Positions 5,095 to 11,237 are shown, numbered from the stretch's first letter. The stretch is 47,729 nucleotides of DNA from Gammaproteobacteria bacterium (GCA_024277575.1 JAJRUX010000214.1:1-47729), one strand, 5' to 3'. A program made the numbers and translations. Notes: generated by a model from the letters alone, not told the origin.

Positions 5095-6123
5095 TTAATC
5101 CAGCGTCATGGCTTTGAAAAAATTCCATACCTCACTCGTCATTTCAATATCATGATTCTGTTTTCCGAAATATTGCTCAAACAACCAGGAGTACTGTTCC
5201 TGAATGCTTGGGGCGGAGTGTCCACCGCCGTTTATTTTGTACAGCACAACTTCCGTCCCCTCGATGCCATTTGAATAGCGGTAGCGGGTTACTGTGCTAT
5301 TGTCCTGTTTATTGATATCAGGAAAATCATAGACAACCGGTGTGGGGTTTGTTTGGTTGACGGTTGTCCATATATTTACGGAGTCTTCTGTTGAGTAAAC
5401 AGTTCCATGGTCGGGTTTGGGCGGATTGGAGAGTACTCCCCCGTGGTATGGAAGGTGGTTGTCGTCGGTGCCGTTCATAAACAGTATGGAGATCGGTTTG
5501 ACGGGTTGGGCGCATTTTGAGTCGTCCGGCATTGCGGCTGCAACGGCTGCGACCGCTGCGATTTTGTCAGATAATTCTATGGCCATTCTCAGGGCCATCA
5601 GCCCTCCATTGGATGTTCCAGAGACATATATTCTGCTCCTGTCGATGCGGTATTTTGATTGGATATCATCAATCAAGGTGGAGATGAATTTTACATCGTC
5701 TGCAATCGAGCTTACGGTTGAATTTGCTAGGCAGTCATTCCATGTGGGCTTTCCATATTTTCCATTCAAACCTTCGGGATAGACAACAATACACTTTTCC
5801 CTATCAGCCAGGTTCATCCATAGTTTGTACGGAGTTTTATGCCCGCTCTCTCCCGTCTCATCTTCTATGTAGATTCCGCCACCGTGCAGTTCGAAGATTA
5901 ATGGATGTGGGGTATGTTCCAATCCATGCGGCAGGTAAATGGCATATCTTCTTGTTTGACCATCAACCTGTATGGTTCGGGTTGACAGACCGTAGTTTGC
6001 GGTTGGGGTGATCTCAACGGACCCCTGACAACCGGCAATAAAAACGGTGACAAGAGCAGCTGTCCACAGCTGGAAAAACAGGTGATTCTCTTTTCTGGAA
6101 ATACTCTGTTTTGTTGCAATCAC
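5095..6123 (-). CDS. secreted or lipoprotein PHB-depolymerase-family alpha/beta-hydrolase (LpqC-like esterase)
   Basis: Lipobox-like FIAGC; LPHGLEHTPHPLIFELHG; nucleophile elbow SGTSNGGLMALRMA; C-terminal GGGHSAP with the catalytic-His context. Confidence 0.8.
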   Translation of the reverse strand: MIATKQSISRKENHLFFQLWTAALVTVFIAGCQGSVEITPTANYGLSTRTIQVDGQTRRYAIYLPHGLEHTPHPLIFELHGGGIYIEDETGESGHKTPYKLWMNLADREKCIVVYPEGLNGKYGKPTWNDCLANSTVSSIADDVKFISTLIDDIQSKYRIDRSRIYVSGTSNGGLMALRMAIELSDKIAAVAAVAAAMPDDSKCAQPVKPISILFMNGTDDNHLPYHGGVLSNPPKPDHGTVYSTEDSVNIWTTVNQTNPTPVVYDFPDINKQDNSTVTRYRYSNGIEGTEVVLYKINGGGHSAPSIQEQYSWLFEQYFGKQNHDIEMTSEVWNFFKAMTLD

Positions 6124-6777
6124 TGCATTTCTGTTCCATGTTTTCCGGTAAGGGGAACAAATACCACGCCAACTATATCACGGGTCTGGTTGGTGCTGTC
6201 TTTTCCTTTCTCCAGTATGACCAGCGTCTGGGACATGGGGGACTGGGCAACGGGGATTACCAGCCGTCCGCCCGGTTTGAGTTGTTTTATCAGGGGTGGT
6301 GGAGGCAGCCGCGACGATGATGCCTTCGAAGGGTGCATGTTCCGGCCAGCCGTAATAATCATCACTTGCGCGGATTTCCACGTTGCAGTGTTCCAGCCTG
6401 CGCAACCGGGCGCTGGCCCGGCAAGCAAGTTTGTCAGCAATTTCGATACCGTACACCTGTTTCACCAGCCGCGACAGGATAGCGGCCTGATAGCCCGAGC
6501 CGGTGCCTATATCCAGGACTACATCGGTCTCTTTTGACTGAAGCAGATCGATCATCAGCGCCACGATATAGGGTTGGGAGATGGTCTGTCCGTGGCCGAT
6601 AGGCAAGGGGCGGTTATCGTAGACATGGTTTTTGTGATCACGCGCGATAAATTCATCACGCGGAACGCTACGGATTGCCTCTATAACCCTCGGGCCGATA
6701 ACGGCTTTGCCGATTTCATGACGGCTGTACTCAATGTCTGCTTCAATTGCCCGGATCATCCCTTCCAGTTCATTCAA
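6120..6777 (-). pseudogene. pcm: protein-L-isoaspartate O-methyltransferase, frameshifted near 6293-6296
   Basis: Frame A (6178..6777): RDEFIARDHKNHVYDNRPLPIGHGQTISQPYIVALMIDLL...VLDIGTGSGYQAAILSRLVKQVYGIE...FEGIIVAAAS. The C-terminal PPLIKQLKPGGRLVIPVAQSPMSQTLVILEK...VVFVPLTGKHGTEMQ is in another frame (6120..6440). Confidence 0.85.
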
Positions 6778-7197: not shown

Positions 7198-7443
7198 ATG
7201 AACAGCAGTGCACAGATACGGCAGGTTGGCGCCCCGGACCCCGAGCTGAGAAATTCACCGGTTGCGGATGAGGCGAGTGACGAATTCGAGGTGCTCAAAC
7301 AGGAGCTGCCCGGAGATCCGTTCTGTTACTTCAACAACCGCAGTTATCCCCACAACAGCTATGTATGCAGCGGGGAGACGCTGTTGCGTTGTGACTACGG
7401 TATCTGGGTGCGGCAAGGGGGGTGCGACCCGGATAATCCCTGA
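7198..7443 (+). CDS. 81-aa small protein with four Cys, no signal peptide (weak DUF1496-like pattern)
   Basis: MNSSAQIRQVGAPDPELRNSPVADEASDEFEVLKQELPGDPFCYFNNRSYPHNSYVCSGETLLRCDYGIWVRQGGCDPDNP. Its stop overlaps the start of the next gene at 7443. Confidence 0.6.
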   Translation: MNSSAQIRQVGAPDPELRNSPVADEASDEFEVLKQELPGDPFCYFNNRSYPHNSYVCSGETLLRCDYGIWVRQGGCDPDNP

Positions 7444-8297
7444 TGCGAAATACCATGAAAATATTGAAGCCGGTTGGTCAGGCCGGGCGGAACACTAGGG
7501 TGGTAATGGGTTCTGACCGGATTCCACTCTGGTATGAGCACAAGGGAGAGGGGGTTCTTTTTGCCACGGCCCTTCATTCCGGTCATCTGCTGCGGCCGGA
7601 GTTGCTCGGGCAGACGGCGCTGGATGAGGAGAGCCGCTTGCGTGAGGAGGATCCCTATACCGATCAGTGGGCCAGGGTTGCGCCCAACTGGATGATACCC
7701 GCACGTTCGCGTTTCGAGGTTGATCTGAATCGTGACAGGGGTGAGGCTGTCTATCTGCAGCCGGAGGATGCCTGGAACCTGAAGGTCTGGAAAAACACCC
7801 CCACCAACGCAATGATTGAACACTCGCTGGCCGAATATGATGCGTTTTACCAGGAGCTTGAGGAGTTTCTGACCGGCATGGTGCAGCGTTACGGTCGCTT
7901 TGTGGTGTATGACCTGCACGCCTATAACCACCGGAGAGAGGGACCTGACAGGCCACCCTCCAATCCCGCCACCCATCCTGATATCAATCTTGGAACCGGC
8001 ACCATGGATCGCCGGCGTTGGGCGCCCGTGGTGGAGCGTTTTCTGCATGACATGCGGGAGTATGATTTTCCCGATCGCCGCCTTACTGTTGGCGAAAATA
8101 TTGTATTCAGGGGGCGGTATTTTCCACACTGGGTTCACACACGTTTCCCCGAAACCGGCTGCGCACTGGCCATCGAGGTGAAGAAGTTTTACATGGATGA
8201 GTGGACCGGAAAGGCAGATCCGTCCCTGGTCAGGGCGGTACAGGATGCAATCGCCTACACGGTTCCCGGCGTGGTTGAGGAGCTGAAAAAGCTGTGA
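7443..8297 (+). CDS. N-formylglutamate amidohydrolase family protein
   Basis: GVLFATALHSGHLLRPEL, FVVYDLHAYNHRREGPD, DINLGTG, ENIVFRGRYFPHWVHTRFPETGCALAIEVKKFYMDEWTG, FGase-like fold signatures. Confidence 0.85.
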   Translation: MRNTMKILKPVGQAGRNTRVVMGSDRIPLWYEHKGEGVLFATALHSGHLLRPELLGQTALDEESRLREEDPYTDQWARVAPNWMIPARSRFEVDLNRDRGEAVYLQPEDAWNLKVWKNTPTNAMIEHSLAEYDAFYQELEEFLTGMVQRYGRFVVYDLHAYNHRREGPDRPPSNPATHPDINLGTGTMDRRRWAPVVERFLHDMREYDFPDRRLTVGENIVFRGRYFPHWVHTRFPETGCALAIEVKKFYMDEWTGKADPSLVRAVQDAIAYTVPGVVEELKKL

Positions 8298-10180
8298 GCA
8301 GGGAACCGCCGGATCCGTTTCTGGCCGGTGATAAAAGGTTTATCGCCTCCATTACCAAATCACTGCGGGAAAACAGCTGGGTGCGCCGCAAGCTGCCGGG
8401 GTGGGGGCGGCTGCACATCGATCGCCGTCTCCCTTTTGTCTGTGTCTATCGGCGGCCACCCGGGCGCGCTGATCCCGGCACCAAATCCCTGTTGCTGGGC
8501 GAGGCATCCTATCTGCTCGCATCCGGAGAGCCGGATCAGCACGGGCGGCTGACCGTGCTTGTGAAGGAGATTGCCCGTGTTCAGAGAGCCGCCTTTGACG
8601 CCTTTCTGATTCTGGAGATCTGGGCGGAAGAGACATCAGCGGAGCCGCCGGCCTTCCGCATTGTTGCGCCGGTTCGGGATGCTCCGCTGATGCTGCTGGA
8701 GTCGATGGAGAACAGCCTGCTCGGCGTGCGTATTAACGAAACTGAACTGCGGGTTACCGTTGACTACCGGCAGCAGTGCGCGCCGCCAGGGCTGCCTCCC
8801 CTGCACTGTCCCGATGATGCGGGAGAGGTTGAGTGTCTGCTGCTTGGCCTCGGAGTTCCGCCTCTCTACCGGGACGCATCCACCGGTACGCTTTTCCCCT
8901 TTGAGCTGGAGCAGTTCCGGCAGAAACTGGGCCGGGCGCTGAAAAAAACCTTCTACACTTTTTCGCACCAATACACCCGCCACCGGCCCGTTCACTACCA
9001 TGAGCTGGGGCGTCATGCCATGACCCCGGTGGTGCAGGAAGCCGATATCGCGCTGGCTGAAATCAGCCGTGATTTCGATATTCTGCTGCATGTTACGCCG
9101 GTGAATGTGGCGGCTGCCTGGAGCGAGTTCAGCAAGGGGCGGTTTGCACGCTCACCGGAGTTTCACTACCGGCCCAGGCCGTTGCAGCCGGCGCGCCTGA
9201 AACGGCGCCTGTATGAGATTCCACTGGAGCGGATCGAAGACCCGACGCTGGCAACCCTTTTTGCCGCCAAGCGTGAAGAGCTGGATCGGCAGATTACCCT
9301 TATCTCCGATCGTGGCACGCGGCGCTTTCTTTATGGCAGTCAGCAAATCTATGGTGAGGTGGATGAGCAGCTGCTGCACCAGGCACGCCAGCTTCTGCAG
9401 CAGCTGCCACCCCGGCAAGCGAGGCAAGAGGATGAACCGGTGCTGGATGCGGCGGCGTTTGCCGTTCACGCCCGCCGGGAGCTGGAGCGGTATCGGCAGC
9501 AGAACCCGGACTTTTCCGCCCGGCTGGAGGTACGTGAAGATATCTCGGGGCTGATGGTATCCAGAGGCAATCTGTTGATTGGTGTGGATGCCAGGGTGCC
9601 CGAAGGCCGGGTGGCAGCTGCGCTTGCCCATGAGGTTGGTACCCATGTTCTGACCTGGCACAACGGCGGCCACCAGCCTTTCCGGCAGTTGCAGGTGGGG
9701 TTGGCCGGATATGAGGCGCTGCAGGAGGGGCTTGCCGTACTCTCCGAGTATCTGGTGGGTGGTCTGGACAGCAACCGGCTGCGCTTGCTGGCGTGCCGGG
9801 TTGTCGCTGTGCACTATCTGAGTGGCGGCGCGGATTTTGTGGAAACCTTTCGTGAACTGAAAGAGAGTTACGGATTTGCGGAATATACCGCCTTCCTTGT
9901 CACCATGCGGGTTTTCCGCGGCGGCGGTTTTACCAAGGATGCGATCTACCTGCGCGGCCTGCTGGAACTGCTGGACTACCTTGGGAACGATGGTGAAATC
10001 GAGCTGCTGCTGCTTGGCAAGATTGCGATGGATCACCTGCCCCTTGTCAGGGAGCTGCAGTGGCGCCGGGTTCTTGAGTCTGCACTGTTGCGCCCCCATT
10101 ATCTGGAGATGGATGGGGCGAAGGAACGGCTGGCCCGCCTGCGCCGGCAGCCTTCGCTGCTGGCGCTGACAGAGGAGTGA
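8294..10180 (+). CDS. DUF1704 / 'flavohemoglobin expression-modulating QEGLA motif' zincin-like metallopeptidase
   Basis: HEVGTHVLTWHNGGHQPFRQLQVGLAGYEALQEGLAVLSEYLVGG contains HExxxH and QEGLA motifs. GTGA overlap with the upstream gene. Confidence 0.92.
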   Translation: MSREPPDPFLAGDKRFIASITKSLRENSWVRRKLPGWGRLHIDRRLPFVCVYRRPPGRADPGTKSLLLGEASYLLASGEPDQHGRLTVLVKEIARVQRAAFDAFLILEIWAEETSAEPPAFRIVAPVRDAPLMLLESMENSLLGVRINETELRVTVDYRQQCAPPGLPPLHCPDDAGEVECLLLGLGVPPLYRDASTGTLFPFELEQFRQKLGRALKKTFYTFSHQYTRHRPVHYHELGRHAMTPVVQEADIALAEISRDFDILLHVTPVNVAAAWSEFSKGRFARSPEFHYRPRPLQPARLKRRLYEIPLERIEDPTLATLFAAKREELDRQITLISDRGTRRFLYGSQQIYGEVDEQLLHQARQLLQQLPPRQARQEDEPVLDAAAFAVHARRELERYRQQNPDFSARLEVREDISGLMVSRGNLLIGVDARVPEGRVAAALAHEVGTHVLTWHNGGHQPFRQLQVGLAGYEALQEGLAVLSEYLVGGLDSNRLRLLACRVVAVHYLSGGADFVETFRELKESYGFAEYTAFLVTMRVFRGGGFTKDAIYLRGLLELLDYLGNDGEIELLLLGKIAMDHLPLVRELQWRRVLESALLRPHYLEMDGAKERLARLRRQPSLLALTEE

Positions 10181-10184
10181 AAAG

Positions 10185-11237
10185 GTGAAGCTTGGTATTG
10201 TGGTCAACAGCATCGAGACGGAGATGGATGATTACACCACAACCCATCTTGCCATGGCCGCCACCAACCTGGGCCATGATGTGTGGTACATGGGCGTGGC
10301 CGATTTTTCCTGTGGTCCCGACGAAAACTCCCATGCGCTGGCGCGCTCCGTTCCGCATCGGCGTTATCGCTCCACCCGCGTCTATCTCAAGCAGCTGCGC
10401 AGTTCCGGGGCACGGGCCGGGCGTATCACCCTGGAGGAGCTGGATGTGCTGCTGTTGCGGAATGATCCGGCGGAGGATGTCATCAAGCGCCCCTGGGCCA
10501 GGCTGGCCGGAATCAACTTCTCCCGCCTGGCCATGCGTCACGGGGTGATCGTACTCAACGACCCCGATGGTCTGGCACAGGCGATGAACAAGATGTATCT
10601 GCAATACTTCCCGGAGCAGACCCGGCCCGCCACGCTGATTACGCGTGACCGGAAAGAGATAAAGGCGTTCATCAGGGAACAGGGAGGATACGGCGTACTC
10701 AAGCCGCTGTCCGGATCGGGCGGACACAATGTATTTCTGGTTCGCCCCGATGAACAGGCCAATATCAACCAGATGATTGAGGCGGTGTCCGCCGAGGACT
10801 ATGTGGTGGTGCAGGAGTACCTGCCCGAAGCGGCCAAAGGCGACACGCGGCTGTTTCTGGTCAATGGCGAACCACTGCAACATCAGGGGAAATATGCAGC
10901 ACTGCATCGCGCCCGCCTGCCGGGTGATGGCGACATGCGCAGCAACATGACCGCCGGAGCGGTTTCCCACCCTGCATCGGTTGATGACAGCATGCTGCAA
11001 CTGGCAGAGATGGTGCGTCCCAAACTGATCCAGGATGGCATGTTTCTGGTGGGCCTGGATATTGTGGGCGGCAAACTGATGGAAATAAACGTATTCAGCC
11101 CGGGAGGGCTATACAGTGCCGAATGTTTTACCGGTGTACACTTCAGCCGGCAGATAATTCACGTACTGGAAGGAAAGGTGGAGCAGATGCATCGTTATTG
11201 CCATCGCCTCAGTAACCGTGAGATTGCTGTGTTATAA
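10185..11237 (+). CDS. glutathione-synthetase-like ATP-grasp ligase
   Basis: MKLGIVVNSIETEMDDYTTTHLAMAATNLGHDVWYMGV...GVLKPLSGSGGHNVFLV...VVVQEYLPEAAKGDTRLFLVNGEPL...VGLDIVGGKLMEINVFSPGGL: GshB-like ATP-grasp. Confidence 0.85.
   Translation: MKLGIVVNSIETEMDDYTTTHLAMAATNLGHDVWYMGVADFSCGPDENSHALARSVPHRRYRSTRVYLKQLRSSGARAGRITLEELDVLLLRNDPAEDVIKRPWARLAGINFSRLAMRHGVIVLNDPDGLAQAMNKMYLQYFPEQTRPATLITRDRKEIKAFIREQGGYGVLKPLSGSGGHNVFLVRPDEQANINQMIEAVSAEDYVVVQEYLPEAAKGDTRLFLVNGEPLQHQGKYAALHRARLPGDGDMRSNMTAGAVSHPASVDDSMLQLAEMVRPKLIQDGMFLVGLDIVGGKLMEINVFSPGGLYSAECFTGVHFSRQIIHVLEGKVEQMHRYCHRLSNREIAVL

Follow-up and report, generated by a model that had tools for sequence, protein, structure and literature searches.

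Three adjoining genes on the plus strand (7443-11237) of a 47,729-nucleotide stretch of DNA from a Gammaproteobacteria bacterium, hereafter the window, encode an FGase-family zinc amidohydrolase, a long MATCAP protein and a GshB-like ATP-grasp amide ligase, and the same trio forms an operon with a wide distribution among bacteria, Planctomycetota, anammox bacteria and Poribacteria among them. The shared arrangement makes it very probable that the three enzymes assemble and dismantle a single peptide-like product. The operon is here read, with about even chances of being right, as a three-enzyme set that makes a small N-capped glutamate-like peptide and breaks it down in a controlled way. Support for this proposal comes from the conserved order and strand of the genes, the fusion of FGase to MATCAP beside the ligase in other genomes, the invariant active sites and the divergence of the ligase from GshB. 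As a defined three-gene system it offers a possible route to discovering either a novel metabolite of peptide type or a novel modification of proteins, and it supplies a bacterial context for the tubulin-trimming MATCAP enzymes. Neither the trio nor DUF1704 (the family since renamed MATCAP, PF08014) together with an ATP-grasp enzyme was found described in literature searches, which did not cover earlier comparative genomics of amidoligases.

Conservation of the trio

A scan of 85,462 species genomes returned 493 relatives, of which the best 80 were kept, remoter ones lying outside the linkage counts; most of the evidence comes from metagenome assemblies. These 80 relatives belong to at least 13 phyla: Pseudomonadota (32), Planctomycetota (18), Poribacteria (6), Chloroflexota, Bacteroidota, Acidobacteriota and Verrucomicrobiota (3 each), Ignavibacteriota and Campylobacterota (2 each) and four further phyla, with four relatives unassigned. 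Under a strict open reading frame (ORF) rule, and considering only loci with room on the contig, the ligase gene lies directly downstream of MATCAP in 71 of 75 loci and the FGase gene directly upstream in 65 of 71, nearly all of them keeping both the order FGase-MATCAP-GSHS and the strand. The neighbourhood survey proposed in the initial annotation thus finds the linkage conserved. At both junctions the median intergenic gap is -1 nt, corresponding to a 4-nt start/stop overlap. Most exceptions to the order are ORF-calling or contig-end effects and were recovered by tblastn; for L092, L112 and L156, where room is present, tblastn gave no FGase match.

Within the host class, 14 of 274 genomes carry an NF009110-type ligase, clearly set apart by score (at least 353 bits versus at most 244 for canonical GshB), and in 12 of these 14 the MATCAP gene directly adjoins it. 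All ten long two-domain MATCAPs of this sample stand in FGase-MATCAP-ligase order, and its solitary MATCAPs of ~430 residues have no NF009110-type ligase alongside. Clustering of the genes flanking 88 loci revealed no further conserved partner in most of them.

Gene fusion and duplication were also observed. In L050 and L051, a 667-residue FGase-MATCAP fusion adjoins a ligase of the NF009110 type, and L069 carries such a fusion alone; this joining, in another lineage, of a predicted active FGase to MATCAP beside the ligase is new in this analysis. Tandem ligase and peptidase copies occur in Planctomycetota, Verrucomicrobiota and some others, with F, M and G standing for the three genes, as G-G, G-M-G and up to F-M-G-M-G-M-G, and in a quick tree the paralogous ligases fall into separate supported clades common to several genomes. 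In the anammox loci L098, L101 and L105 (Scalindua/Brocadiaceae), the first tandem ligase has lost the Mg ligands (E300G, N302D) and carries K136R, while the second is intact, so that, judged by their residues, the two look like an inactive and an active member of a pair. That unrelated housekeeping enzymes have come to lie together by chance or through history is a practically negligible explanation, with no evidence found in its favour and contradicted by the conserved gene order, since the same arrangement in at least 13 phyla is accompanied by 4-nt overlaps and by gene fusion.

Two arrangements of other kinds were seen during the survey. Short solitary MATCAP genes have both RimK and a gene of retropepsin-like (RimB-type) kind as neighbours in 2 of ~20 loci (L076 and L084), and L058 (7020-11988) holds an NF009110-like ligase without MATCAP, together with CorA, an MscS-like protein, RimK and an AstE/AspA hydrolase, a gene group that is possibly an analogous ligase-hydrolase set.

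Gene layout and the three enzymes

In the window, the FGase gene (7443-8297, +, 284 residues) overlaps the MATCAP gene (8294-10180, +, 628 residues) through a GTGA at 8294, and the predicted ligase gene (10185-11237, +, 350 residues) follows after a 4-nt gap at 10180/10185. A gene for an 81-residue Cys protein (7198-7443, +) precedes them and overlaps the FGase gene as TGATG at 7443. The coordinates and overlaps of these four ORFs in the initial annotation all proved exact on re-reading of the window. Its description of a four-gene cassette holds for FGase-MATCAP-ligase and fails for the 81-residue gene, which adjoins the cassette in the window's genus only. Relatives of this protein occur without the cassette in five other genera (G010, G025, G033, G047 and G054) beside unrelated genes, and the four-gene unit was therefore rejected, the protein being independent of the trio and a genus-level neighbour outside the conserved system.

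The FGase matches PF05013 (E=3e-20), and its residues H45, D94, N96, R97, D157, H159 and E245 are invariant in 63 of 63 cassette homologues; profile and catalytic residues both place it in the superfamily, and it is predicted from them to be an active zinc amidohydrolase. It thereby shares fold and conserved catalytic residues with HutG-type N-formylglutamate amidohydrolases, but differs from them in giving no match to the NCBIfam HutG equivalog and in having no hut gene noticed nearby, no genome-wide hut search having been made.

The MATCAP protein scores 296 bits with PF08014 (cut-off 27; E=4.7e-88) and 339.6 bits with TIGR02421 (cut-off 338.65). Its catalytic domain (residues 251-615, 9044-10138, +) is supported by the TIGR02421 match and by sequence and fold matches to human MATCAP (7z5g/7z6s). 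Both motifs reported at the outset were located, the zinc motif HEVGTH at 9629-9646 (+; H446, E447, H451) and QEGLA, which contains the third zinc ligand, Glu478 (9725-9727, +); H446, E447, H451 and E478 are kept in 74 of 74 homologues. The AlphaFold model of the whole protein has a mean pLDDT of 93.4, and its C-terminal half superposes on human MATCAP (7z6s, 7z5g) with a Foldseek E of ~1.5e-8 and a TM of 0.72 by target length, in agreement with the sequence match of the domain to the same entries (E=1.5e-8). Sequence and predicted fold therefore bear out the kinship with animal MATCAP that had been suggested. With the tubulin carboxypeptidases MATCAP/TMCP (KIAA0895L, KIAA0895) the bacterial protein has in common the zincin fold and HExxxH plus Glu, and with human MATCAP the HEIGTH motif together with an R..RG...KD..Y block; it differs from them in its N-terminal domain and its ligase neighbour, and tubulin is not a plausible substrate.

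This N-terminal domain (approximately residues 12-235, 8327-8999, +) shows weak Foldseek matches to phosphorylase/hydrolase folds, among them the FGase 2q7s. Profile comparison with the neighbouring FGase (hhalign) gave E=8.6e-4 with an HH-suite probability of 24%, against 0.35-0.45 for unrelated controls, and BLAST aligns the 628-residue protein collinearly with both domains of the L050 fusion (E 2e-56 for the whole alignment). Since these alignments show other residues in place of DxH and the catalytic Glu of FGase, zinc-ligand His159 falling on Trp110 (Trp in 71 of 74), the domain is, at the level of sequence, best read as a catalytically dead FGase. Such a copy as the N-terminal domain of the long MATCAP is likewise new here, and would imply that the peptidase shares its substrate with the FGase.

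The ligase contains GSH-S_ATP (PF02955, 4e-48) and belongs to the NF009110 (PRK12458) subfamily, with 421.3 bits over a cut-off of 408. Its AlphaFold model (pLDDT 93.3) has as nearest fold Escherichia coli GshB (1gsa, TM 0.89 by target length) and then RimK. K173, R222 and R252 are found in 82 of 82 cassette ligases, and E300 and N302 in 78 of 82. In the acceptor-side loop by the Mg-site ExN, all 82 carry SPGG, TPGG or SPGA, in contrast with SPTC or SPTG in 12 of 12 canonical GshB, the latter being a trait of the canonical sequences compared here and lying outside the published definition of GshB. The score stays under both GshB equivalog cut-offs (TIGR01380, 196.7 vs 299.05 bits; NF003573, 207.8 vs 272) and under that of RimK (TIGR00768, 74.3 vs 143.4). 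On another contig, the host genome has adjacent canonical gshA (631 bits) and gshB (456 bits, over the cut-off), so that a canonical glutathione synthetase, the identity that the initial annotation had named as undoing its proposal, was rejected on the cut-offs, the loop and this separate pair. The ligase thus has the fold and the catalytic residues of the ATP-grasp core of bacterial GshB, but differs from it in subfamily and loop, in lacking a GshA partner and in standing apart from the host gshAB. A second glutathione or analogue pathway, in which the ligase would make glutathione or a variant of the form gamma-Glu-Cys-X, to be recycled by the two hydrolases, is nevertheless suggested by the GshB fold, by the conserved catalytic Arg, Asn and Mg ligands and by the NCBI label of NF009110, 'glutathione synthetase'; the same cut-offs, the change from SPTC/SPTG to SPGG across the family and a host already equipped with gshA-gshB make it quite improbable.

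Around these genes, the 81-residue protein shows in Pfam only a sub-threshold resemblance to DUF1496. The small Cys-containing family to which it belongs (window 7198-7443; L181-L185) mostly ends in DPDNP or similar, is found in several Gammaproteobacteria genera and lies near argH in two genomes. Upstream, a protein-L-isoaspartate methyltransferase gene (6120-6777, -) has an apparent frameshift near 6300, its C-terminal part (LKPGGRLVIPV...) being in another frame, and appears to be an assembly error or a pseudogene.

Proposed function and its main rival

In the proposed small-peptide system, the ligase would activate a carboxylate with ATP and join an amino acid to it, as its family does, MATCAP would remove the C-terminal residue of the peptide, and FGase would hydrolyse the amide at an acyl-Glu-like head. 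The pseudo-FGase domain has probably kept the ability to bind the head group and would in this way offer the tail to the MATCAP site, and the tandem ligase and peptidase paralogues of some phyla may extend or regulate the chain.

The physiological role could be osmotic, although this is a weak lead. According to whole-genome counts, 5 of 31 loci of ~16 kb, from five phyla, contain MscS channels, where ~0.5 would be expected from ~1 per Mb, and several contain SLC12-like transporters; this enrichment is only suggestive, because positions were assigned to loci manually and the families were picked after being seen. A Pfam tally of 119 flanking proteins, headed by MscS, permease and cation-transport families, was not used, several genes having been added by hand.

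Three observations weigh against a small peptide as the product. The flanking genes of the loci include no conserved partner that would make an evident precursor, for example an N-acyl-Glu synthase or GshA; the window itself has no osmotic neighbours, and Pseudomonadota show no such pattern, the lead stemming from non-proteobacterial loci; and the MATCAP/TMCP enzymes of humans have protein tails rather than metabolites as substrates, taking C-terminal Tyr and Glu off tubulin as detyrosinases and deglutamylases (PMC10499314). Because of this last activity a protein target has to be considered, and the main rival that remains is a writer/eraser of protein C-terminal tails, in which the ATP-grasp ligase would add amino acids, MATCAP trim them and FGase recycle them, in the manner of RimK/RimB on RpsF. 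The Glu added to RpsF by RimK is indeed removed by RimB (PMC12239564), and RimK is the second structural relative of the ligase. On the contrary, the ligase falls under the RimK cut-off and stands nearer to GshB, itself a ligase of small peptides, a kinship that speaks for a small peptide over a protein C-terminus, the neighbourhood holds no conserved gene for a target protein, and the presence of FGase-type and pseudo-FGase domains points to a small head of acyl-Glu kind; tail modification is accordingly considered unlikely, if still a serious contender.

A wider and rather doubtful scenario extends the small-peptide proposal to the eukaryotic enzymes. The profile of cassette-type MATCAPs finds human MATCAP at E=1.5e-8, versus 0.017 for that of the solitary type, and HE[IV]GTH is common to cassette-type and human MATCAP, the aligned solitary type having HEGWVH (17/17), which hints that eukaryotic MATCAPs are closer to the cassette clade. 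There might then exist a phylum-spanning non-ribosomal peptide system in which a MATCAP with a dead FGase sensor and an ATP-grasp ligase work in opposite directions on a single capped peptide that might be an osmolyte, and the animal and alveolate MATCAPs would have derived from this ligase-linked clade. If true, the pairing of ATP-grasp ligase and MATCAP would be older than tubulin tyrosination.

By analogy, the closest working precedents for the cassette would be the RimK/RimB and RloABC pairs and the NAGGN operon. The former resemble it in that an ATP-grasp amidoligase gene lies beside a peptidase gene, the Rlo peptidases being tied to hypo-osmotic tolerance (PMC12239564), but they differ in that RimB and RloA are retropepsin-like aspartic peptidases, FGase is lacking and the ATP-grasp subfamily is another. 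The NAGGN operon (asnO-ngg-peptidase) has enzymes that, as far as known, are not homologous to those of the cassette, and asnO and ngg are not conserved neighbours in the 88 loci; it likewise consists, however, of a ligase plus a peptidase, and couples the non-ribosomal synthesis of an N-capped osmolyte dipeptide with a linked peptidase (PMC8070244).
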